64,000 nt of DNA from the NCBI RefSeq assembly GCF_003148625.1, contig NZ_QGGO01000011.1:82049-146048 (forward strand), written 5' to 3'. The first letter of the stretch is position 1, and each line of letters opens with the position of its first letter. The position numbers were made by a program, and so were the translations under genes. Below, one piece after another: positions 5,830 to 17,756 of the stretch. A model generated the notes under the pieces. The model saw only the letters and a program-made list of their open reading frames with translations. It made no database searches and was not told the DNA's origin. Source of the stretch: Arcicella aurantiaca (GTDB lineage: Bacteria > Bacteroidota > Bacteroidia > Cytophagales > Spirosomataceae).

Positions 5830-6741
5830 TTGAGTTTTCAATTAACTATCTTAGGCACAGGTTCGGCTACGCCCGTACTTACACGCAATCCGACGGCACA
5901 TTATCTTCATATTGAGCAAGATGGATATTTGATTGATTGTGGAGAAGGTACACAAAATCAGCTTTTACGTTATAAATTGCGTTCTACACGATTGAAGTAT
6001 ATTTTCATTACTCATCTTCATGGCGACCATTATTTTGGATTAATCGGACTGATTTCTACGCTCAATATGCACCGTAGAACGGACGACCTTTGGATATTTG
6101 GACCAAAAGGTTTGGCTGAAATTATTACCATTCAATTGAAATATTCTGATGCGTGGTTAAATTTTAAAGTTCATTTTATTGAAACCGAAACAGAAAAAAC
6201 GTATCAATTGTTTGAAAATGAATGTGTTACCGTAACTACAATTCCATTAGTACATCGTGTGCCATGTTGTGGATTTCTTATTAAAGAGAAAAGAGGAAAA
6301 CGAAAATTAAGAAAAGAAGTGTTACCTGCCGATTTGTCGATAGATGAAATTAAAAGTTTGAAAGAAGGTTATGATATTTTAGACGAAAATGGACAATTAA
6401 AATATTCAAATGCAACATTGACGAAGCCAGAAGTTGAACCCAAAAGTTATGCTTTCTGTTCAGATACTCTTTTTCATGAACCCATCATTGAAATTGTACG
6501 AGGTGTAGATTTGCTTTATCATGAAGCCACTTTTTTAAAAGATTTAACTGCAAGAGCAACCCAAACTTGTCATTCTACGGCTGCTCAGGCAGCAGAAATA
6601 GCTGAAAGAGCCAAGGTTAAAAAGTTAGTCATTGGTCATTATTCATCAAGGTATAAAGACCTTGAACCCTTTTTGCTTGAAGCTAAAAAAATATTTGAAA
6701 ATACGATTTTATCAACTGAAGGATTGACTTTAGATATATAG
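5830..6741 (+). CDS. rnz: Ribonuclease Z
   Basis: Ribonuclease Z is a zinc-dependent tRNA 3'-endonuclease of the metallo-beta-lactamase superfamily. The 303-residue protein has the zinc motif THLHGDHYFGL (His62, His64, Asp66, His67). Downstream metal ligands are a His in PLVHRVPCCGF, an Asp in CSDT and a His in IGHYSSRY. The length matches the short form RNase Z. The start appears to be TTG at 5830, since the family N-terminus FQLTILGTGSATP begins there and no ATG lies upstream in frame close by. The gene is bounded by terminators on both sides, so it is likely monocistronic. Confidence 0.95.
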   Translation: MSFQLTILGTGSATPVLTRNPTAHYLHIEQDGYLIDCGEGTQNQLLRYKLRSTRLKYIFITHLHGDHYFGLIGLISTLNMHRRTDDLWIFGPKGLAEIITIQLKYSDAWLNFKVHFIETETEKTYQLFENECVTVTTIPLVHRVPCCGFLIKEKRGKRKLRKEVLPADLSIDEIKSLKEGYDILDENGQLKYSNATLTKPEVEPKSYAFCSDTLFHEPIIEIVRGVDLLYHEATFLKDLTARATQTCHSTAAQAAEIAERAKVKKLVIGHYSSRYKDLEPFLLEAKKIFENTILSTEGLTLDI

Positions 6742-6744
6742 AAG

Positions 6745-6801
6745 TTTTTAATCATAAAAAGGAGGAATTCAGCGAATTCCTCCTTTTTTTTTGATTAAAA
6801 A
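6745..6801. terminator. Strong bidirectional terminator after rnz
   Basis: The core stem GGAGGAATTC (6761-6770) / GAATTCCTCC (6774-6783) has a 3-nt AGC loop. It is flanked by A5 and T9 runs, and an outer stem TTTTTAATCA / TGATTAAAAA extends it. It is terminator-shaped on both strands and is one of the longest hairpins in the window. Confidence 0.9.
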
Positions 6802-7359
6802 TACTTAATTAGTTAAATGTATAAATACTTAGTTCTTTGAAAAGTTCAATTTTTAGAATTTGTATATTTAAACCTGTTTTTTATTATTTTGCAAAATATT
6901 GGCATAAAATAGCCTATTTTGATTCTTTGTTGTAGGATTTTTGCAGAAATGTGTTAAGGTTTTGTTGATTTTAAATCTTGTTTGATTTTATGATTAACCC
7001 TTCGTGTAACCTTTTTTTGATTGTATTTTGATGTTTTTTATTACTATTAAATGTATTTTTAGTATTTATTTTATAAAATTTAACTTTTTATCGTTTTTAT
7101 TTTTGAAATTAAAATTGTTTGTATAGTTTTATGTAGTTATTCTTGAATAAGTACAATTATTGTTTTTGCTTTTGACTCTTTCCGACCGCAGAATGAGAGT
7201 TGATAAAACAAGTACTTAATTCTGCCCTTTCTCAAAATTTATAGAGCTAAAATTTCAAATTCACGCATTATTAGATATGCTTTTACAAGCGTATCGTTTG
7301 GTTGACATTCACGGTGAAACCTCTTAATTTTTTAAGAGATAATGATATTTCAAATTTTT
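6802..7359. other. Long AT-rich gene-free region before susC gene
   Basis: No convincing open frame is present. The first 350 bp are very AT-rich. From about 7170 the base composition is more balanced and small hairpins appear: CTCT...AGAG around CCGACCGCAG (about 7180-7203) and CTCTTAA/TTAAGAG (7321-7338). The promoter and a long 5' leader of the SusC operon probably lie here; I could not place a promoter with confidence. Confidence 0.5.
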
Positions 7360-7422
7360 CTCTTCATACTGATTATTACATACCGAGCGGTCGGAGTAAT
7401 GTAATAAATCAGTTTTGAAGAG
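7360..7422 (+). promoter_or_regulatory. Long hairpin in the SusC-gene leader
   Basis: Nested complementary blocks form one long interrupted stem: CTCTTCA (7360-7366)/TGAAGAG (7416-7422), CTGATT (7369-7374)/AATCAG (7407-7412), ATTACAT (7375-7381)/ATGTAAT (7399-7405), and CCGA (7383-7386)/TCGG (7391-7394) closing a GCGG tetraloop. It ends 28 bp before the SusC start codon. No T-run follows, so it is not a plain terminator. A regulatory leader structure or a protein-binding palindrome is inferred. Confidence 0.5.
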
Positions 7423-7450
7423 ACGGCAAACTAAACCCCTTCACGTATAA

Positions 7451-10400
7451 ATGATGAGAAACTTTTACATAATATTCTTATTGCTTTTATCTTTCGTAGC
7501 TTCAGCTCAAGATAGGATTATAACAGGGATAATTAACTCGGAAAAAGATGGGTTGCTCCCTGGTGCATCAATACTTATAAAAGGAACTGTAAATGGTACA
7601 GTGACAGATGCAAATGGTAAGTTTTCAATTAAAGTGCCTGCTAATAGTAATGTTTTGAAAATAAGCACTGTCGGATATTCTACCAAAGAGATAACGATTG
7701 ACAATAAAACTTTTTTTCAAATCAGTCTTGTTCCCAATAATTTAGAACTTAATGAAGTGGTTGTAACCGCCTTAGGGATTTCGAGAGAAAAGAAATCTTT
7801 GGGGTATTCTCAACAAGAACTCAAAGGAGAGGGTTTGGTGGAAGCACGTTCTAATAACATTGCGAATTCTCTTTCAGGAAAAATTGCAGGCGTAAGAATT
7901 GGCAGTAATGGTGGCCCCGGAAGTGGCTCTACCATTCAGATTCGTGGTTCTTCATCGGTATCAGGAAATAATCAGCCATTAATTGTAGTTGATGGTGTTC
8001 CTATTCAGCAACAATTTGATAAGCAATTTGGAGGAGGAATTTCAGAAGTTAATCCTGATAACATAAAAGATATTTCAGTGCTGAAAGGACCCAATGCCGC
8101 CGCACTTTATGGTTCAAGAGCCGCCAACGGGGTAATTTTGATTACAACTAAAGATGGTGCAGGAACAAAAGGTTTAGGCATTGAAATTAATACCAATTTT
8201 ACGGCTGAAAGACCTTTAGTAAAACCCAATTTTCAGAATACTTATGGCGGAGGTTCTGGTTATACTACTTGGTATTCAGATGGTTGGAGTGGTGTTATTG
8301 CTCCTGATGCTTATGACCAATATCGTGCAGCTTATGGCAGTGTTTCACCGGGAAGAACTACTGGTACTGACGGTACAGATGAAAGCTGGGGAGCTCCGAT
8401 GGACGGAAGATTGGTGCGTCAATGGTACACAGGAACAAATGTTGCTCCGCTAACGCCACAACCTAATAACTGGGATGAATATTGGAGTACAGGAACTACT
8501 TTGTCTAATAATGTTGCCATTTCTGGAGCAAATGAAAAGGGTAGTTTCCGTTTAAGTTTGGGCAAATTAGACCAAACGGGTTTAATGGCTTTCAATGATT
8601 TTTATAGAAATAACTTCAAACTAAATTCAAATTATAAAGTATCCAAATTCCTAACTGCTGTTGTTTCTGGTGAATATGTGAAGTCTGGAGGTAATAGAAC
8701 TTACCAAAATGGAGACCAATTTATTTGGTCGCATAGACACGTTTCTTGGGACCAATTGGCTAATTGGGCAGACTATTCTGCTGTACATATTCAAAGAGCT
8801 GTTGCAGGAAAATTGCCCGATACTGACCCTGCTAACTGGCAACATACTTTCTTTACCAATCCATTTTATTTAAGTGAAAAATTGCCTTATACCAATGATA
8901 AAGACCGTTTGGTTGGCAATATCGCTTTGAATTTTACTATTATGCCCTCTTTAAAATTGATGATGCGAAGTGGTACAGATATGTGGTCGGATACGAGAGT
9001 AAACATTGTCAATTTCGAGCGTGTAAGGAATGGAAACTTAACACCGGGGAGATATTCTGAAGAAGTATTGCGTCGTCAGGAAACAAACCACGATGTTTTA
9101 CTTTCTTACGACAAAGCCATCACGAATGATTTAAGTATTGTGGCTTCGGCTGGAGCAGCTCAAAGAACCAATATGTACAAACGTAACTATGCTTACGTGG
9201 GTGAGTTGGTGGTAGATAAGGTGTATAATTTGGCAAATTCAAATCCAAGTCAAAACACAATTGAAAGTAGAATTGAGAAAGCAGAGGTACAAAGTGTTTA
9301 TGGTTCGTTTCAATTTGGCTATTTGAATGCTCTTTTCTTAGATGTTACTGCTCGTAATGACTGGTCAAGTACATTGCCTTCTAATGCACGTTCTTATTTC
9401 TATCCTTCGGTTTCAGCGAGTGCCGTTTTGTCGGATTTAATTGATTATCCAAAAGAAATTGTTTCGTATGCAAAAGTAAGAGGTAGTTGGGCTCAAGTTG
9501 GTAACGATGCCGACCCTTATCAATTGCTTCAAACTTTCCGTTCTGGCGGTTCTTGGAACAGTTCATTGCCAGAATATTATGAAAACTTAACCATTTCTAA
9601 TGCTACTTTAAAACCAGAAATCACAACGGGTATCGAAGCAGGAATCGACTTAAAATTCTTCAAAAATAAATTTGGTCTTGACCTGACATATTATTTACAA
9701 TCTACTCAAAATCAGATTCTTGGTGTTGAAATTTCAAAAGCAAGTGGTTATGATAAACGTATTTTGAATGCTGGTAAAATTACCAATCAAGGTATTGAAG
9801 CAACACTTTCTGGAAAAATATTGGAATCGGCAAGAGGTTTTAAATGGGATTTAGCCCTGAATTTCTCAAAAAACAAAAACCAAGTGGTTGAATTAGCCGA
9901 AGGATTGACTACTTACACCTTGCAAGAAAGAAGAGGATTAACCTCAATTGCACAAGTAGGAATGCCTTATGGTTCTTTGTTCGGAATTGGTTTTAAACAC
10001 GCTCCAGACGGGCAAATTGTGTATCAAAATGGACTTCCTGTGGTAGAATCTACGCCAAGAGTGCTTGGGAATATTCAACCAGATTGGATGGGAGGGATGA
10101 ACAATACATTCTCATACAAAAACTTTGTTTTATCTGCTTTGATTGACGTAAAAATGGGCGGAGATATTTTTGACGAAGGAACTGGTACTGCTCGTTGGAC
10201 AGGTCAATATGCCGAAACTGCTCTTGGTCGTGAAGAAGGTATCATCGGAAAAGGTGTCATGAATGTTGGTACTACTGAAAATCCACAATATGTTCCGAAT
10301 GATGTAATTGTAGCAACCAACCAACTAATTGGCTATAATAATCCACGTCGCTATCACGAAGCTGCCATATTTGATGCTTCGTTTGTGAAGTTGAGAGAAG

Positions 10401-10618
10401 TTTCTTTTGGCTATAACATTCCAAAAACTTTCTTGAGAAGCATCGGAATACAAAATGCTAAAATTTCAATAGTGGGTAGAAACTTGGCAATTTTATTCAA
10501 GAATACACCACACATCGACCCAGAAGTTGACCGTTTTGGGGCAAATCAACAAGGTTTTGCTTATGGAGAATTACCCAATTCAAGAAGTATTGGGGCGAAT
10601 CTCTCAATTGGTTTCTAA
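7451..10618 (+). CDS. SusC/RagA-type TonB-dependent outer-membrane receptor
   Basis: A 1055-residue outer-membrane transporter. After a signal peptide ending near FVASAQ come a carboxypeptidase-regulatory-like domain (about residues 22-95, with ITGIINSEKDGLLPGA), the linker NEVVVTALG, and a plug domain with GKIAGVRIGSNGG and the SusC/RagA signature QIRGSSSVSGNNQPLIVVDG. The remainder is the beta-barrel, ending in the aromatic residue Phe. SusC proteins form a TonB-powered channel capped by the SusD lipoprotein encoded next. No glycoside hydrolase or peptidase adjoins it, so the substrate is unknown. A long leader with hairpins lies upstream. Confidence 0.95.
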   Translation: MMRNFYIIFLLLLSFVASAQDRIITGIINSEKDGLLPGASILIKGTVNGTVTDANGKFSIKVPANSNVLKISTVGYSTKEITIDNKTFFQISLVPNNLELNEVVVTALGISREKKSLGYSQQELKGEGLVEARSNNIANSLSGKIAGVRIGSNGGPGSGSTIQIRGSSSVSGNNQPLIVVDGVPIQQQFDKQFGGGISEVNPDNIKDISVLKGPNAAALYGSRAANGVILITTKDGAGTKGLGIEINTNFTAERPLVKPNFQNTYGGGSGYTTWYSDGWSGVIAPDAYDQYRAAYGSVSPGRTTGTDGTDESWGAPMDGRLVRQWYTGTNVAPLTPQPNNWDEYWSTGTTLSNNVAISGANEKGSFRLSLGKLDQTGLMAFNDFYRNNFKLNSNYKVSKFLTAVVSGEYVKSGGNRTYQNGDQFIWSHRHVSWDQLANWADYSAVHIQRAVAGKLPDTDPANWQHTFFTNPFYLSEKLPYTNDKDRLVGNIALNFTIMPSLKLMMRSGTDMWSDTRVNIVNFERVRNGNLTPGRYSEEVLRRQETNHDVLLSYDKAITNDLSIVASAGAAQRTNMYKRNYAYVGELVVDKVYNLANSNPSQNTIESRIEKAEVQSVYGSFQFGYLNALFLDVTARNDWSSTLPSNARSYFYPSVSASAVLSDLIDYPKEIVSYAKVRGSWAQVGNDADPYQLLQTFRSGGSWNSSLPEYYENLTISNATLKPEITTGIEAGIDLKFFKNKFGLDLTYYLQSTQNQILGVEISKASGYDKRILNAGKITNQGIEATLSGKILESARGFKWDLALNFSKNKNQVVELAEGLTTYTLQERRGLTSIAQVGMPYGSLFGIGFKHAPDGQIVYQNGLPVVESTPRVLGNIQPDWMGGMNNTFSYKNFVLSALIDVKMGGDIFDEGTGTARWTGQYAETALGREEGIIGKGVMNVGTTENPQYVPNDVIVATNQLIGYNNPRRYHEAAIFDASFVKLREVSFGYNIPKTFLRSIGIQNAKISIVGRNLAILFKNTPHIDPEVDRFGANQQGFAYGELPNSRSIGANLSIGF

Positions 10619-10666
10619 AAATCAATTACAATTAAAGCATAACATTAACCTTAAATTTTGAAAGAT

Positions 10667-12133
10667 ATGAAATTATATAAAACGATATATTCATTTTTAG
10701 CCATTGGAAGTTTGTTGTTGCTGAATGCTTGTACCAGCAAATTTGACGAACTCAATACCGACCCCAATAACCCAACTGCAATAGGTTCTCAATATCTTTT
10801 TCCGTATGCCGTAGAGAAATCGGTTGATAGATATTGGGGAGGAAATACCCGTTTTGAACGGCTCAATTTAGACGGTGCAATGCTCTGGATTCAGTATTTA
10901 GCCAGAAATATTTATTCAAACGAAGGTGATAATTATGGAATAACGCCAACTTTTTACAACAATACATGGAAGTCGCTTTATAATGATGGTTTGGTAAATT
11001 TTCAAAGAATTATCACCGAATCAAGCACAACAGGCAAAACACCAAACAAAAATTATGAAGGGGCAGCCATCGTGATGCGTACTTGGGTTTTTTCTTTATT
11101 GACAGATATGTACGGGGCAATTCCATACACAGATGCCCTCAAAGGAACGGATACTTCGCCCGTTTATACGCCAACGTATGATTCGATGGACAAGGTTTAT
11201 GAAAATTTGTTAAATGACTTGAAATTGGCAAACGAGAAACTGACTGTCGGAGGACCAAGTATTACAGGCGATATTATTTATAGTGGCGATATTTTGAAAT
11301 GGAAGAAATTTGCTAACTCTCTCAGACTTCGTTTAGCGAACAGACAAGCTGCCAAAAAGTCGGCTGAATCACGTGCCATCATGCGTGAAATCTTAGCAGA
11401 CCCTGTGAAATTCCCAATTTTTACAAGCAATTCCGACAATGCTCTTTTGGCAAATACCATTACAAGACCAAGCAATAATGAATGGCACGAAGTAATGATT
11501 ATTGGTAGCAGAACTGACTGGAATATTAGTAAAACATTGGTCGATAAATTATCAGGATTGAATGATACTCGTCTGGGAGTTTTCGCCAACAAAAATAAGT
11601 CGAATGCTTATGAAGGTGTACCCAATGGGCTTCCAGATGCCATTGCAACCACTTATTTGAGTACAGGGTCGGTTTTGGGAGATTATTTTACCAGAGCCAA
11701 TACACCAAGTGTTATTATGACTTACAGTGAATTGCAACTCATTTTGGCAGAAGCTGCTTTCGATGGTGACATTACAGGAACGGCTGATGATTATTTCAAA
11801 AAAGGTATTGATGCGTCGTTTGCACAATATAGTTTAAGCACTCCAACAGACTATCTAAAAACCGTTGGAACAATTTCCAAAGAAAAAATTATTGAGCAAA
11901 AGTGGATTGCCCTTTTCGGACAAGGAGTGGAGGCTTGGACGGAATTTAGAAGAACAGGCTTTCCTAAATTTTCTGCAAGAGACCCACGTGCAGTATTTGA
12001 AAATGACGGAATTGTACCGACTCGCTTGCCGTATCCAACCACTGAATATTCGTTGAACAAAGCAAAACTTGATGAAGGAATTAAATTGATTGGTACGGAT
12101 AATATGAAAGCGAAACTTTGGTGGACAGAGTAG
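10667..12133 (+). CDS. SusD/RagB-like substrate-binding lipoprotein
   Basis: A cell-surface lipoprotein partner of the upstream SusC-type receptor. The lipobox LLLNAC is followed by TSKFDELNTDPNNPT, a typical start of the SusD-like_2 branch. TPR-like helical motifs follow, including TYSELQLILAEAAF near residue 345. The ATG at 10667 is preferred over the in-frame TTG at 10658 because it gives a compact type II signal peptide. The 48-bp gap to the receptor gene implies co-transcription. This branch is often tied to small or peptide-like ligands rather than large glycans, but that is weak guidance. Confidence 0.92.
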   Translation: MKLYKTIYSFLAIGSLLLLNACTSKFDELNTDPNNPTAIGSQYLFPYAVEKSVDRYWGGNTRFERLNLDGAMLWIQYLARNIYSNEGDNYGITPTFYNNTWKSLYNDGLVNFQRIITESSTTGKTPNKNYEGAAIVMRTWVFSLLTDMYGAIPYTDALKGTDTSPVYTPTYDSMDKVYENLLNDLKLANEKLTVGGPSITGDIIYSGDILKWKKFANSLRLRLANRQAAKKSAESRAIMREILADPVKFPIFTSNSDNALLANTITRPSNNEWHEVMIIGSRTDWNISKTLVDKLSGLNDTRLGVFANKNKSNAYEGVPNGLPDAIATTYLSTGSVLGDYFTRANTPSVIMTYSELQLILAEAAFDGDITGTADDYFKKGIDASFAQYSLSTPTDYLKTVGTISKEKIIEQKWIALFGQGVEAWTEFRRTGFPKFSARDPRAVFENDGIVPTRLPYPTTEYSLNKAKLDEGIKLIGTDNMKAKLWWTE

Positions 12134-12184
12134 CGATGTGTTTCCCGATTGCTACTCATTATTTTAACTTAAACGATTCCAATT

Positions 12185-12655
12185 ATGAAAAAAATACTAT
12201 ATATCTGTTTCCTTTTTATCGCTTTTATTACGGTTTCTTGTAAAGTTGACGACCCTTTCGTGGATAGAGTTGTAGCTCCTGTTTTGGTAATTTTTGAAGA
12301 TGCCGCAGGTAAAACTTCTGGCTTAACAACAGAGCCATCAATTAGTTCTTCGGCTTCGGTGGATGCTTCCATTACTGTTCGATTATTGGAATTGAATAAA
12401 GACGGGTTACTTGATTATAAAGTAGGTATAGACAGTATTCCTGCCAAAGCAATTCCTGTTACTTTCAAACTACGTAGCGGAGCAAAAATCTCAGATGTAA
12501 CAACGGATGACAAAGGACGTTCAACGCTAAAAATTGCGTGGAAATCACTCGGGATTACTGCTCCAGTAGCAGGTTCGTCGGTGGCATTAAGTTGCTCTGG
12601 AACTTATAAAGACATATCATTTACAAAGTATTTTCGCTTAACAGCAACAAAATAA
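12185..12655 (+). CDS. Small lipoprotein of the SusCD locus
   Basis: A 156-residue protein with a type II signal peptide (ITVSC, Cys20). The mature part is rich in Ser, Thr, Val and Lys and predicted beta-structured, with phrases such as PVTFKLRSGAKISDVTTDDKGRSTLKIAW that recall bacterial Ig-like domains. I do not recognise a named family. It sits 51 bp after the SusD gene and 27 bp before the aminotransferase gene, so it probably belongs to the same operon and may be an extra surface binding protein for the same ligand. Confidence 0.75.
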   Translation: MKKILYICFLFIAFITVSCKVDDPFVDRVVAPVLVIFEDAAGKTSGLTTEPSISSSASVDASITVRLLELNKDGLLDYKVGIDSIPAKAIPVTFKLRSGAKISDVTTDDKGRSTLKIAWKSLGITAPVAGSSVALSCSGTYKDISFTKYFRLTATK

Positions 12656-12682
12656 TCTTATCAAACAAAACTAATAAATTCG

Positions 12683-13870
12683 ATGAAAAACCTTATTAAC
12701 AGACGCAATCTTCTTAAATCAAGCTTAATGACCATTAGTGGTATGGCATTAGCTCCACATATTTCAATGGGTGCTTTTCCAGAAGCTCCCGTAAGAATAG
12801 ACTCACAAAATAGACTTTATTATAGTCCACTTGTTAGAGAGCATTTTTTAGATGAAAGACCCAATGTAAGTGCCATGTTGGCACGTTTAAATGCTAACGA
12901 AAATCCTTATGGCCCACCTTCAAGTACGCAAAAAGCCGTAGCCGAATCTGTGATGGGTGGAAACAGATATTCTTGGAAAGAATTAGCCACTTTAGTTGAT
13001 AAATTATCGAAGAAAGAAGGCGTAACCCCAAACCACATTATGATGGGGCCGGGTTCTTCTGATTTACTCGAAAAAGTAGCGTTAGTATTATTCATGAAAG
13101 GAGGAAATGTTGTTTCTGCCGACCCAACTTATATGTCATTGATAAAAGTGGCTGAGTCTGTTGGGGCAACTTGGAAGGCAATTCCTTGTAAAAGTGACTG
13201 GTCGCATGACCTTCCTGCTATGGAAGCCGCTATTGATAAAGACACCAAAATGGTTTATATCTGTAATCCAAATAACCCAGTTGGTAGCATTACGGCAGGA
13301 AAAGATTTGTTAGATTTTTGTTCAAGAGTTTCAGAAAAAGTACCTGTATTTATCGACGAAGCCTATCTTGAATTAGCCGAAGGAACAGGAACAGAATCTA
13401 TGGTTTCTCTTTTAGCTCAAAAGAAAAATGTCATCATTGCTCGTACATTCTCAAAAATCATGGGTATGGCTGGGCTTCGTGTTGGTTATGCCGTAGCTCA
13501 ACCAGAATTTTTAGATAAAATTCAAAAAATTACACGTGGAGGAATGGGAATTTCTCATACGTCAATTTTAGGAGCAATTGCCAGTTTTGAAGACAAGGAG
13601 TTTCAAGCAATGACTAAAAAACTCAATACCGAGTGTAAAGAATATTTGTATGAAAATCTTAAAAAGATGAACTACAAATATATTCCATCTTATACCAATT
13701 TTGTGATTTTTCCAATCAATATTCCGGGAAAGGATTTCTTGGCTAAAATGACTGCTAAAGGCGTTATGGTCAGGGCTTTTGATATTCAAAATAAACCTTG
13801 GTGTAGAGTAAGTATGGGAACAATGGAGGAAATGAAATTATTTGTAAAATCATTAGGCGAATTGTCATAA
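12683..13870 (+). CDS. Tat-exported HisC-like PLP aminotransferase
   Basis: A fold-type I, class I/II aminotransferase resembling histidinol-phosphate aminotransferase. The N-terminus INRRNLLKSSLMTISGMAL is a twin-arginine signal (R7, R8), followed by about 30 extra residues before the enzyme proper. Catalytic features are intact: LNANENPYGP, CNPNNPVGS, FIDEAYLE, and PLP-binding Lys258 in RTFSKIMGMAGLRVGYA. Export through Tat would place a folded, cofactor-loaded enzyme in the periplasm. It is the last gene of the SusCD operon, with no his genes nearby, so a role in histidine synthesis is unlikely. The substrate is unknown but is presumably related to what the receptor imports. Confidence 0.88.
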   Translation: MKNLINRRNLLKSSLMTISGMALAPHISMGAFPEAPVRIDSQNRLYYSPLVREHFLDERPNVSAMLARLNANENPYGPPSSTQKAVAESVMGGNRYSWKELATLVDKLSKKEGVTPNHIMMGPGSSDLLEKVALVLFMKGGNVVSADPTYMSLIKVAESVGATWKAIPCKSDWSHDLPAMEAAIDKDTKMVYICNPNNPVGSITAGKDLLDFCSRVSEKVPVFIDEAYLELAEGTGTESMVSLLAQKKNVIIARTFSKIMGMAGLRVGYAVAQPEFLDKIQKITRGGMGISHTSILGAIASFEDKEFQAMTKKLNTECKEYLYENLKKMNYKYIPSYTNFVIFPINIPGKDFLAKMTAKGVMVRAFDIQNKPWCRVSMGTMEEMKLFVKSLGELS

Positions 13871-13972
13871 TTATCAATGATTTTATTATTTGGAGTTGTG
13901 TAAACCTCTTATAATTAATTTGTTATAAGTATTAGGAATAATTTGACATTATATATATTGGGATAATGTTGT

Positions 13973-14010
13973 TTAGATTAGACAACTTTCAAAAAAGTTG
14001 TCTAATCTAA
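13973..14010. terminator. 17-bp perfect hairpin after SusCD operon
   Basis: TTAGATTAGACAACTTT (13973-13989) and AAAGTTGTCTAATCTAA (13994-14010) are perfect reverse complements around a 4-nt CAAA loop. No T-run follows on the plus strand, so it may work as a structure-only terminator or an mRNA 3'-end stabiliser. The rest of the 13871-14211 gap holds only the short repeat at 14101. Confidence 0.65.
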
Positions 14011-14100
14011 TTCCAATACGTCATGTCGTTGTCTATAAACGGATTGGGGGTTGCCAAAAAGGAACTATGTAATCTATTGGTTTTTAGTAGTTTACTTATT

Positions 14101-14128
14101 CGCTTTTTCGCAAATCGCTTTTCGCTTA
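14101..14128. repeat. Heptad-type repeat, relative of the one at 45515
   Basis: Four 7-bp units: CGCTTTT, TCGCAAA, TCGCTTT, TCGCTTA. The reverse complement closely matches the tract at 45515-45543 (AGCGAAAAGYGATTTGCGAAAA), so this is a dispersed element present twice in the window in opposite orientation. Confidence 0.65.
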
Positions 14129-14211
14129 GTATAGTTGATTGTTGACTTTTGCACAGCTCCTCACATTTTAGAGTTTAGATTTTCAAATTCACTTCATTAC
14201 AATAAAAAATT

Positions 14212-15306
14212 ATGGTTGAGGCATTACAAAAAACGCTTATCCTCCTCCTTTTAATCGGAATAGGGTTTGCACTTAGAGGTAAAATCAAGAACAAAACAGA
14301 AATAAACGGGGTGAAAGAAATAATCTTGTCAATTGCTTTGCCTTCAACGGTATTCATAGCATTGATGGGCATTAAAATTAGTTTATCGCTTTTAATTTAT
14401 CCAATTCTAATTCTTGCATTTAACTTTTTTATCTTTTTATCAGCTCCTTACTTTTTGCCAATTTTTGGTATCGACAAAGACAGCACTTCTGGAAGAACCT
14501 TAACGATGCTTTTGCCCTCATTAGCTCCAGGTTTATCAAGTTTTCCTTTTATAAATGAATTTTTAGGGGACGAATCTTTAGCTTTAGCGGCTATGGGAGA
14601 TGTAGGAAATAAATTTTTCGCCTTGAATTTCCTGTATTTTGTAGCCCTAAAAATGTATTTGAAAAACAATAGAGAAGAGGAAGTTCAAGAAAGCGGAAAG
14701 GTGAAAAGCCTTTTATTGAGCTTGGTAAAAGAACCCATAAATATCATTATGTTATTGGCAATCGTATTTCTTTCAGTAGGATTAAATATGACTTCGTTGC
14801 CAACGGTTGTTTCAGAATTGTTTAACCGTGCCAGCAGTTTGATGACTCCTTTGGTTTTGATTTACATTGGTTTAGCCGTCCAATTCAAAGAGGGGAAAAT
14901 TAAATTGGTAAGTTCAATTTTGTTATTCAGAGCAGGAATTACACTTTTATTTAGTGTTTTTATCATAAATGTATTCAATATAAGTAACCCAAACCTCATC
15001 CTTTTAGCTGTGGTAGTGCCGTTGAGTTCTTGTAGTTTTTGGCCTTTTGCCCATATTTCGGCAATTAATCTAAAAGAAGATGACAAAAACTTACCAAAAG
15101 AAAGAAGAACTTTTGACTTGAATTTGGCGGTACTCATTTTAGCTTTTTCTTTACCACTTTCAACAATTTTGGTCATGGGAATTTTGGCATCAGGTCAATT
15201 TTTTGCCAATACAAGCACATTATTGATGTTTGGGTTTTTATTAACAGGTTTGGGGCTTGCTCCTCATTTGTTTAAAAAGCGTTCATTCAAATTTTCAAAA
15301 GCGTAG
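14212..15306 (+). CDS. AEC-family permease
   Basis: A 364-residue inner-membrane protein with about ten hydrophobic helices arranged as two five-helix halves, as in the auxin efflux carrier (AEC) family. N-terminal features include GIGFALRGK and INGVKEIILSIALPSTVF, and the second half has LIYIGLAVQFKEGK. Characterised bacterial AEC members carry malate, malonate or other organic acids; the substrate here cannot be read from sequence. A hairpin separates it from the aminotransferase gene, so it may be transcribed alone. Confidence 0.82.
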   Translation: MVEALQKTLILLLLIGIGFALRGKIKNKTEINGVKEIILSIALPSTVFIALMGIKISLSLLIYPILILAFNFFIFLSAPYFLPIFGIDKDSTSGRTLTMLLPSLAPGLSSFPFINEFLGDESLALAAMGDVGNKFFALNFLYFVALKMYLKNNREEEVQESGKVKSLLLSLVKEPINIIMLLAIVFLSVGLNMTSLPTVVSELFNRASSLMTPLVLIYIGLAVQFKEGKIKLVSSILLFRAGITLLFSVFIINVFNISNPNLILLAVVVPLSSCSFWPFAHISAINLKEDDKNLPKERRTFDLNLAVLILAFSLPLSTILVMGILASGQFFANTSTLLMFGFLLTGLGLAPHLFKKRSFKFSKA

Positions 15307-15332
15307 GATTTAATCTACTTTGGTAATCTTTC

Positions 15333-15507
15333 AAAAGCCGTAGGCTTGCTTCATCTTGTAGCCCCGAAATTCATTTCGGGGTTAAAATGACATAACAATC
15401 CATTGAATTCCGTAGGAACGGTTCATCTAAGCAAACCTTTAAATATTCCGCTATTTCCTCGAAATAAATTTCGGGGCTACAAAATTTACCGAACCTACGG
15501 CTCTTTT
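15333..15507. repeat. Composite palindromic intergenic element
   Basis: The outer arms AAAAGCCGTAGG (15333-15344) and CCTACGGCTCTTTT (15494-15507) pair. The inner arms TGTAGCCCCGAAATT (from 15357) and AAATTTCGGGGCTACA (about 15466-15481) pair as well. Each inner arm is itself a small hairpin on CCCGAAAT/ATTTCGGG. A further copy of CCGTAGG occurs at 15410-15416. The element fills the gap between the convergent AEC permease and type IX protein genes. It resembles repeat elements that I recall being common between Bacteroidota genes. A short open frame across it is not a gene. Confidence 0.75.
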
Positions 15508-15533
15508 AGGGCAAGTTTTAAAGTGCCAAAGTG

Positions 15534-17756
15534 TTACCTCACCAAACTAATCCAACCTTTAAATTCTCTTTGGGTAAATTTAAGTTGATAGAAATAATCA
15601 GCAGAGGCTAAATCACCGCCTGTCCATTTAAAATTTTTGTCTGAAGACTTATAAACGGAACTTCCCCAACGATTGAAAATTTCAATCGACTCAAATTGTT
15701 CTAAACATGAATTCTCTGGTAAATCCAAGGAAAAATAATCATTTTTCCCGTCTCCATTTGGCGTAAAAACATTAGCAGGTTTAAAGGTTTCAAAATTAAC
15801 AACCTTATTTTTCAAGGTAATATTTACGGCAACAGTATCGTATTTGTCAATATTACAAGAATTATTTTCTACGATGAAATCAATTTTGTAACTCATCAAT
15901 TCTTTGCCTTGCAACAAACTACAATCAGGTTTCCACGAAAAAGGGTTTACAATTTTTATATTTCCCGATTTATCAGTCCAGCTCATTCCATTAGCTTTTA
16001 AATCAAAGCCATTGGGTACGGCAAATAGTCTGATAATGGTTTTTGGGTCAATTTCTTCGCCAATTACATCAAATAAAATGGCTTGAGGTTCTGTGCCATT
16101 TAGTGTTATATCAATGGTATTATTCGGTAAACTTGTATAAACTGTTGGCGGGGGGATTTGGGGGCTGAGAGTTTTTAGATTTACAGAAATACTATCTCTT
16201 AAATTTCTTCCACATCGCTTATCAATCACAATAAAGTCCACGATGTAATCAGTAGTGCGTTTCAAATCACAAATTGGCGTCCACGTAAAAGGACTGGTTA
16301 ATTTTCCAACGCCCGACCCGCCAGCAAATGACATTCCTGCTTGAGATAAATTAAAACCTCTTCCTGTGGCAATAATGGTAATGCTGTCATTATCAAGGTC
16401 ATTTCCGAACAGATTAAATTTTAATGTATTCCCAAGTAATGTTTCTGCTCTTTGATTTAACAAATCTGAAATAATAGTTGGGCGTGCATTTGGTTTGGGT
16501 TCAATCAATACTTTTAATCTCAAGGTTGACGAAAGTGGTTGTGGACATCCATTATCAGTAACGATAATGTCAAAAAGTAATGGTTTCCCATCGGTAGATT
16601 CTGTGCATTCATCAAAACAGATTTCAGACCTTAATGTGTCTTTGGGACTTGAATTTGATAAATTAGAAGGCGATAATGTGGGATTGTATTTTGAATTAAC
16701 AGCAACAACCTTCATGGAAATAGACTGATTCAAATCTCGGTCGTTTCCCATCAAGGACAAACATTTCTTTTCGCCGTATTTTATCGTAATGGTACTTTCT
16801 GATTTATAAAATTCGGTTTTCCCTTTCTCTCTAAACAAAGCTACGGGGGCATTATTAGTGGGACAGTCTAAAGATTTGAGCTGAAAATCTCTTCTAACTT
16901 CTCCAATTTTCACGCCTTTTCTATATTCTTCTACCAAAACACAAAAAACATATAAGCCTTCTTTATCAACTGTAACCGTTAATTGCCCCGTTCGTGGATT
17001 GACCGCTAAGGGTTGTGGGCCTCCCATGACATTGCCAAGACTAAAACCATTGCCCCAAGCTACCAGAGGATAATTACTACTACCACGTGGAAGAGCAGGA
17101 TTAGGGAAATCTTTATTACTATAACCGTTTAAAGGTGTCACTAAGCTATATACTAAACTATCGCTATCGGCATCGGTTGCTCCAAATTCAAAAGTAAATG
17201 GACGATTTAGACAAATATAATCTCCTTTCAAAGTTGTGAAAGAAGGAGAAGAGTTTACAAAAGCTACGCCATCTTTTTTCAGAGCTGGAAAAGATAAGTA
17301 AAATACAGATGCGGCTTCTTGAGGTAAAACAATGTTTGAAATAATATTATTTCTGCAACAACGTTCCCAAACGATATAATACCCTTGAGCATCAGCAAAG
17401 TCGTCTGGATTTAGATAAATTAAACTTGAATATTGTAATAAACGAGTTTGCACCTGATTGCTTTGTGTACAGGTTGGGTTTGTATATTGGATAAGATTGC
17501 TACTAACAAGTGGCACAATCACATAGCCCATTAAAAAATTATCTCTTTTCCTGAAAATACCTAAAGTTAAGTTTTGGTCAATAGCTCCAGTCGAACCATT
17601 GATGTTATCAAAATAAAGATTCAGATTAAGCCGATGAGAGGCATTCGTTTGGTTTTTTAAAGCCAATAATTCAATTTCACCTCCAACGATATGCGTCGCA
17701 TATAATGACGGTGCGTATATAATTGCAAGCAATATAATTAGGTAAAATTTTCTCAT
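15534..17756 (-). CDS. Large secreted protein with type IX type-B sorting domain
   Basis: A 740-residue secreted or surface protein. The signal peptide ends around SLYA, followed by THIVGGEIELLAL, the typical opening of a family of large Cytophagales extracellular proteins. The middle is beta-rich with repeated domains. Each repeat carries a phrase like FSWKPDC/FTWTPICDL, and the repeats resemble Ig/cadherin-like modules. The last about 85 residues form a gliding-motility-associated C-terminal (type B sorting) domain: VFTPNGDGKNDYF, IFNRWGSSVY, W-GGDLASADYFYQLKF and a final GWISLVR. Such domains send proteins through the type IX secretion system. An adhesin-like role is inferred. Confidence 0.9.
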   Translation of the reverse strand: MRKFYLIILLAIIYAPSLYATHIVGGEIELLALKNQTNASHRLNLNLYFDNINGSTGAIDQNLTLGIFRKRDNFLMGYVIVPLVSSNLIQYTNPTCTQSNQVQTRLLQYSSLIYLNPDDFADAQGYYIVWERCCRNNIISNIVLPQEAASVFYLSFPALKKDGVAFVNSSPSFTTLKGDYICLNRPFTFEFGATDADSDSLVYSLVTPLNGYSNKDFPNPALPRGSSNYPLVAWGNGFSLGNVMGGPQPLAVNPRTGQLTVTVDKEGLYVFCVLVEEYRKGVKIGEVRRDFQLKSLDCPTNNAPVALFREKGKTEFYKSESTITIKYGEKKCLSLMGNDRDLNQSISMKVVAVNSKYNPTLSPSNLSNSSPKDTLRSEICFDECTESTDGKPLLFDIIVTDNGCPQPLSSTLRLKVLIEPKPNARPTIISDLLNQRAETLLGNTLKFNLFGNDLDNDSITIIATGRGFNLSQAGMSFAGGSGVGKLTSPFTWTPICDLKRTTDYIVDFIVIDKRCGRNLRDSISVNLKTLSPQIPPPTVYTSLPNNTIDITLNGTEPQAILFDVIGEEIDPKTIIRLFAVPNGFDLKANGMSWTDKSGNIKIVNPFSWKPDCSLLQGKELMSYKIDFIVENNSCNIDKYDTVAVNITLKNKVVNFETFKPANVFTPNGDGKNDYFSLDLPENSCLEQFESIEIFNRWGSSVYKSSDKNFKWTGGDLASADYFYQLKFTQREFKGWISLVR

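Follow-up and report, generated by a model that had tools for sequence, protein, structure and literature searches.

A candidate locus for periplasmic deamination of L-amino acids in Arcicella aurantiaca and other Bacteroidota, with a predicted Tat-exported aminotransferase and an AEC/PIN-fold permease

Amino-acid use by Gram-negative bacteria is normally held to begin with uptake into the cytoplasm, and bacterial AEC carriers transport organic acids. Here we describe a locus of Arcicella aurantiaca in which a SusC/SusD outer-membrane pair, a small lipoprotein, and a pyridoxal phosphate (PLP) aminotransferase with a predicted twin-arginine translocation (Tat) signal are followed by a permease of AEC/PIN fold. 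The locus lies in a stretch of 64,000 nucleotides (assembly GCF_003148625.1, contig NZ_QGGO01000011.1, positions 82,049 to 146,048 of the forward strand), which we call the window and in whose coordinates we give positions. The closest described enzymes are PtaA and PvdN of Pseudomonas, PLP enzymes that Tat exports to the periplasm, where they take part in pyoverdine maturation; in a review of pyoverdine, PtaA is a transaminase acting on the glutamate of pyoverdine, occurs also in species without pyoverdine, and is assumed to have its PLP somehow regenerated in the periplasm (PMC6206403). For the uptake side, a second paper mentions a BT2263/64-peptide complex and names RagAB as a peptide transporter (PMC7782687). 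Our literature search, which took in the top matches listed and left most subscription papers outside, returned papers on PtaA and PvdN but none describing an exported aminotransferase in a locus with SusCD or AEC genes. Tat-exported PLP enzymes and peptide-importing SusCD pairs are already known; what appears to be new is that they are combined here with a permease of AEC fold or, in sister loci, with an oxidase.

The genes run in one direction on the + strand: SusC, SusD, the small lipoprotein, and the aminotransferase (together 7451-13870), then the permease (14212-15306). We propose, at about even confidence, that they form a module for the periplasmic deamination of L-amino acids, with uptake by SusCD or a TonB receptor and a partner that handles keto acids. 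The SusCD pair, or another TonB-dependent receptor elsewhere, would let peptides or amino acids enter the periplasm. The aminotransferase would fold with its PLP in the cytoplasm, be exported by Tat, and transfer the alpha-amino group of L-amino acids to a keto-acid acceptor in the periplasm. The permease would carry 2-oxo acid through the inner membrane, to bring in the product or, by exchange, to provide the acceptor. In sister loci, a homologue of L-amino-acid oxidase occupies the place of the permease and may supply or recycle keto acids. An initial annotation of the window had seen here a SusCD locus ending in an intact PLP aminotransferase with a twin-arginine signal, and the profile matches (TIGR04056, PF12771, and PF00155) and invariant active-site residues bear it out.

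The conserved core of the module is the aminotransferase and the AEC permease, and the SusCD set is a replaceable partner. We compared the best 80 of 106 confirmed related loci from a genome collection, the window itself not being among the 80; the closest named ones are from Emticicia and from metagenome-assembled genomes labelled Arcicella or Cytophagales (86-95% identity). A homologue of the AEC gene lies directly 3′ of the aminotransferase and in the same direction in 76 of the 80, with an estimated gap that ranges from a 1-bp overlap (nine loci) to 201 bp and is at most 50 bp in 32 of the 76. One of the four loci without it (L107) is cut by a contig end, and the other three are second copies in Dyadobacter (L061, L063, and L074), each in a genome where another site unites SusC, SusD, lipoprotein, aminotransferase, and AEC. 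Among 59 genomes (that of A. aurantiaca and relatives), the same 20 have an aminotransferase ortholog (at least 62% identity) and an AEC ortholog (E <1e-100), adjacent in every one; among the remaining 39, AEC matches are limited to two weak ones (E 1e-9 and 1e-10). In an evenly drawn sample of 198 genomes of the phylum, which shares the A. aurantiaca genome, G054, and G047 with the first set, the AEC gene is found in seven genomes, exactly those with an aminotransferase of at least 47% identity, and is adjacent in all seven. The link between the two genes that the initial annotation had drawn is thus much stronger than it could know.

A FastTree phylogeny of 100 proteins places the AEC-linked enzymes inside one clade (85 tips, 77 of them AEC-linked, support 0.99). 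We also considered a single origin for the oxidase-linked enzymes and rejected it, as the seven such proteins in that run do not form one clade. Copy number varies around the core: L120, L121, and L122, like the three Dyadobacter loci, are solo second copies that are 64-70% identical and lack AEC, with an AEC-linked copy in the same genomes; L123 has the order aminotransferase-AEC-aminotransferase; and L124 has two tandem aminotransferases with SusCD and no AEC.

The aminotransferase (12683-13870, + strand; N-terminus MKNLINRRNLLKSSLMTISGMALAPHISMG) matches PF00155 (176.7 bits) and is predicted to be a HisC-like enzyme of fold type I. In an alignment of 32 proteins (30 from the 80 loci, the window protein, and one sister protein), N72, D225, Y228, K258, R266, and R375 are invariant, as are R7 and R8; Lys258 is the Schiff-base residue, and residues 7-8 form the twin arginine. 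The PF00155 match together with the PLP lysine, aspartate, and arginine is what characterizes class I/II PLP enzymes, and by this measure the aminotransferase looks intact. Its structural model (predicted local distance difference test score, pLDDT, 87.6) has as closest solved fold 3ly1, a putative HisC of Erwinia carotovora (template modelling score, TM-score, 0.80/0.91). Profile scores are 255 bits for PRK09105 (cut-off 444), 252.2 bits for TIGR01141, the HisC profile (cut-off 276.55), and 220.9 bits for NF051461, the PtaA profile (cut-off 500).

Fold relatives of this enzyme have other chemistry, and profiles for CobD, GntC, and VioD match it below their cut-offs. A fold type I oxidase that uses oxygen, a lyase, a racemase, or a decarboxylase would need no acceptor, and if the enzyme acts in vivo as one of these, the problem of the periplasmic acceptor would disappear; the partner in the sister loci is moreover an oxidase homologue. 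We consider this rather unlikely, as its best matches by profile and by fold are to aminotransferases and its catalytic residues are the usual ones.

We predict that the aminotransferase is a Tat substrate, based on a conserved twin-arginine motif and a Tat translocase in the genome (TatC, 230 bits). Conservation of the motif in orthologues had been named beforehand as a test, and an N-terminal RRxx(hydrophobic)(K/R/Q) is kept in 79 of the 80 related loci; the sole exception is L116, from Maribacter litopenaei, whose aminotransferase spans two reading frames because of either a broken gene or a sequencing error. As a control within the A. aurantiaca genome, which has 17 PF00155 matches, we examined eight PF00155 genes and found the N-terminal RR motif solely in this one. 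A role in histidine biosynthesis, for which placement of orthologues in a histidine operon had been put forward as the sign, is rejected: the hisC of the genome (367.5 bits) adjoins hisD (318.6 bits) on the same contig as the window, some 80 kb upstream of it, and none of the 80 loci has a tblastn match at E 1e-5 to this hisD, the one his gene searched.

The match to the PtaA profile raises a further possibility, that the enzyme modifies the amino group of a secreted or imported siderophore or peptide, which is then taken up by the TonB receptor or SusCD. TonB receptors generally carry siderophores, and the described activity of PtaA on pyoverdine would be a precedent, but the score is far under the NF051461 cut-off. 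We found no condensation domain of a nonribosomal peptide synthetase (NRPS) at E 1e-20 in the A. aurantiaca genome, in a search that did not extend to siderophore genes of other kinds, and such a domain is present in just three of the 20 AEC-linked genomes (G002, G010, and G024). Tailoring of this kind is therefore improbable.

The permease (14212-15306, + strand) is predicted from its fold matches to be an inner-membrane protein of AEC/PIN fold, and it is the constant neighbour of the aminotransferase. Its model (pLDDT 82.5) matches PIN8 first (E 7.5e-5), followed by human LYCHOS, PIN1, and PIN3, with query TM-scores of 0.48-0.64 among 19 matches at E 0.001. By sequence it has no Pfam match at E 0.01, no match to a solved structure at E 1, and 41.8 bits against TIGR00946, under the cut-off of 246.05. 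The initial label of AEC permease is thus upheld by fold and falls short by sequence cut-off. With PIN proteins, which are annotated as auxin exporters or transporters, among the closest folds, and with a direction of transport that cannot be read from sequence, the module might also work outward: the permease would export a keto acid (or an auxin-like aromatic acid), and the exported transaminase would convert it to an amino acid to be used in the envelope or released. The TonB receptors and SusCD pairs of these loci are import systems, and the sister loci carry an oxidase of catabolic type, both of which speak against an outward module and make it very improbable.

Sister loci suggest what the partner of the aminotransferase may do. 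In L125, L126, L128, L129, L130, L131, and L136, the place of the permease after an aminotransferase about 40% identical to that of the window is taken by a flavin amine oxidase and a secreted Hint-domain protein. The best solved match of the oxidase is 2jae, with 344 bits across residues 38-512 (the runner-up has 141), an L-amino acid oxidase that we take to be from Rhodococcus opacus. Of 16 oxidase copies, 13 begin with an RR motif, two carry RK, and one is truncated; of the 14 copies of the aminotransferases beside them, 11 have RR. The oxidase is present in 14 of the 59 genomes and, by coordinates, directly adjoins an aminotransferase of the family in 11 of them; in G017 the contig ends within the oxidase gene. 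The two oxidases of the phylum sample both lie beside an aminotransferase of the family. Other loci that we examined differ in context, with tandem aminotransferases, a solo second copy, or no gene for either of the two partners.

The AEC ortholog (20 genomes) and the oxidase (14 genomes) share none of the 59 genomes (Fisher 0.0013, with kinship ignored), and the AEC gene and the oxidase share none of the 198 genomes of the phylum sample, where they occur in seven and two. The window genome itself has no oxidase ortholog (best match E 4.5e-12). The carrier and the oxidase homologue, which share no genome in these samples, would both fit a role in supplying or recycling keto acids or in clearing product, and from such a common role we predict that the oxidase could stand in for the permease.

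The Hint-domain protein of the sister loci (L128:10820-11773) is secreted and carries a C-terminal Hint domain of the self-cleaving type that starts at a cysteine; its N-terminal part matches no family. Homologues are found in L125, L126, L129, L130, L131, L136, L155-L165, and L167, including 15 of the 16 oxidase loci, where the gene does not always touch the oxidase or share its strand. The protein is also encoded next to an aminotransferase in L160 and, in three Dyadobacter genomes, downstream of AEC. In L158 two aminotransferases lie beside the oxidase, and in L158 and L159 a change to RK is common to two separate proteins.

We see hints that the substrate class narrows toward L-alpha-amino acids or peptides, because of the oxidase homologue in the sister loci, Lrp/AsnC-type genes near some loci (described below), and the nearness in sequence of the window SusC to the peptide-binding BT_2264. 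The initial annotation had left the amino compound unnamed; an amino substrate is retained, and its class is now predicted more closely. No pointer to phosphonate or amine substrates was seen, although no search was aimed at them. More broadly, Bacteroidota may have a nutrient strategy, not met with in our literature search, in which a Tat-exported transaminase removes the amino groups of amino acids from imported peptides while these are still in the periplasm. The keto acids of that compartment would be managed by either a dedicated PIN-fold carrier or an exported L-amino-acid oxidase, which exclude each other, such that carbon would enter as keto acid and nitrogen could stay outside. We offer this generalization tentatively and regard it as somewhat doubtful.

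The outer-membrane genes of the window are a SusC-type TonB-dependent transporter (7451-10618, + strand; TIGR04056, 646.5 bits with a cut-off of 368.25), a SusD-like lipoprotein (10667-12133, + strand; PF12771, 328.8 bits), and the small lipoprotein (12185-12655, + strand). By sequence, the closest solved relative of SusC is BT_2264 (5fq6_B, 417.5 bits; the runner-up has 219), and the closest solved structure to SusD is 5j5u, with BT_2263 also among the matches. Lipobox-like motifs were picked by eye in SusD (LLNAC) and in the small lipoprotein (TVSC), which matched no Pfam or NCBIfam family in a profile search. For SusD we took the start as the ATG at 10667; the open reading frame list has a TTG at 10658. 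By these coordinates, the gaps from SusC through to the aminotransferase are 48, 51, and 27 bp.

SusC, SusD, and lipoprotein of the window family lie beside the aminotransferase in 19 of the 80 loci (14 co-directional, 5 divergent), the small lipoprotein having a tblastn match beside the pair in all 19. The proposed order of SusC, SusD, lipoprotein, and Tat aminotransferase does recur in relatives, then, but not as a constant core. Another 20 loci have a different TonB receptor (about 987 amino acids) and a different lipoprotein (about 166 amino acids) in the SusCD position, and L045 has the receptor alone (21 in total). The SusCD-lipoprotein set might therefore be an independent neighbour, with the unit limited to the aminotransferase and AEC gene, as its presence in just 19 loci, its divergent orientation in five, and its absence upstream of the aminotransferase in the close relatives L039, L094, and L045, which keep the aminotransferase and AEC, would allow. 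We think this unlikely given the short gaps in the window and the use of the same place by the second receptor and its lipoprotein. The SusCD-lipoprotein family of the window also stands beside the oxidase-linked aminotransferases of L125, L128, and (divergently) L130, and L126 has a more distant SusC and SusD (42% and 40%) with no match to the lipoprotein.

A divergent gene of an Lrp/AsnC-type cluster is found in 17 of the 80 loci; 16 of these are upstream in the 20 receptor-lipoprotein loci, and in L073 the gene is directly divergent from the aminotransferase. The assignment was profile-checked for the members in L064 and L073, and all 17 match an Lrp-like gene of the window genome. That gene (L168:6025-6486, G000:C11) is 44-48% identical to those of the flavobacterial loci and lies near his genes, away from the aminotransferase. 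Two single loci have peptide enzymes upstream, a gamma-glutamyltranspeptidase (L055) and an M14 carboxypeptidase (L099).

Several observations weigh against periplasmic deamination as we propose it. A periplasmic transaminase requires an amino acceptor, here proposed to be a keto acid. The aminotransferase scores below the HisC, PRK09105, and PtaA cut-offs, so its family gives no assignable substrate, and the AEC/PIN label of its neighbour draws on a predicted fold and a sub-threshold profile. In the window the gap between the aminotransferase and the permease is 341 bp and contains a perfect 17-bp inverted repeat with a 4-nucleotide loop (13973-14010), a possible terminator or regulatory hairpin, which may allow the AEC gene to be transcribed separately. 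Neither the SusCD set nor the second receptor is present in 40 of the 80 loci, within the stretches examined, some of which end at contig edges, so SusCD uptake is not essential to the module. Of the 20 phylum-sample genomes in which an aminotransferase was found at E 1e-60 (mostly at 35-40% identity), 11 lack AEC and oxidase alike. The link to the oxidase also has exceptions: G052 has no aminotransferase in the 9,000 bases around its oxidase, and the nearest one in G040 is about 10 kb away. In L158 and L159, both of them oxidase loci of the phylum sample, the RR motif has become RK; this holds for the oxidases and for each of the three aminotransferases.

The left edge of the locus is marked by a terminator-like hairpin and T-run (6756-6788, + strand) 3′ of a gene for RNase Z (5830-6741). 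An RNA element in the leader was considered and rejected, as the four Rfam matches all fall on this hairpin and below their gathering scores. Downstream of the permease, the opposite strand encodes a protein sorted by the type IX secretion system (15534-17756). With this protein and RNase Z as neighbours, no secreted hydrolase adjoins the locus, and the aminotransferase is its only enzyme, as first annotated. The SusC and SusD pair expected of a polysaccharide utilisation locus is present (TIGR04056 and PF12771), but family searches found no secreted carbohydrate-active enzyme among the genes from 5830 to 17756.

If periplasmic deamination by this module is true, deamination would shift into the periplasm, in loci with differing TonB receptors across Bacteroidota. 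Bacterial carriers of AEC/PIN fold would gain a testable substrate class, and there would be a clue to the roles of Tat-exported HisC-like enzymes outside pyoverdine makers.

Compared with the known systems, the window enzyme resembles PtaA and PvdN as a PLP enzyme with a Tat signal that is predicted to act in the periplasm, and it matches the PtaA profile at 221 bits. It differs from PtaA in scoring under the cut-off of 500 and in being set beside nutrient-uptake genes and an AEC-fold permease, and at E 1e-20 an NRPS condensation domain is missing from 17 of the 20 AEC-linked genomes. HisC shares its fold and active site (TIGR01141, 252 bits), but the window enzyme is below 276.55, has a Tat signal, and is outside the his operon, whereas the hisC of the same genome scores 367.5. 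Like BT2263-64 and RagAB, the window has a SusC and SusD pair, whose SusC best matches BT_2264 among solved structures; in the window, the only enzyme that adjoins the pair is an aminotransferase with an export signal. The permease model fits PIN8, PIN1, PIN3, and human LYCHOS, but with about 12-15% identity in the fold matches and a profile score under the cut-off. The oxidase, which occurs in the sister loci only, has near full-length homology to 2jae (344 bits) and differs from it in adjoining an aminotransferase of the window family.

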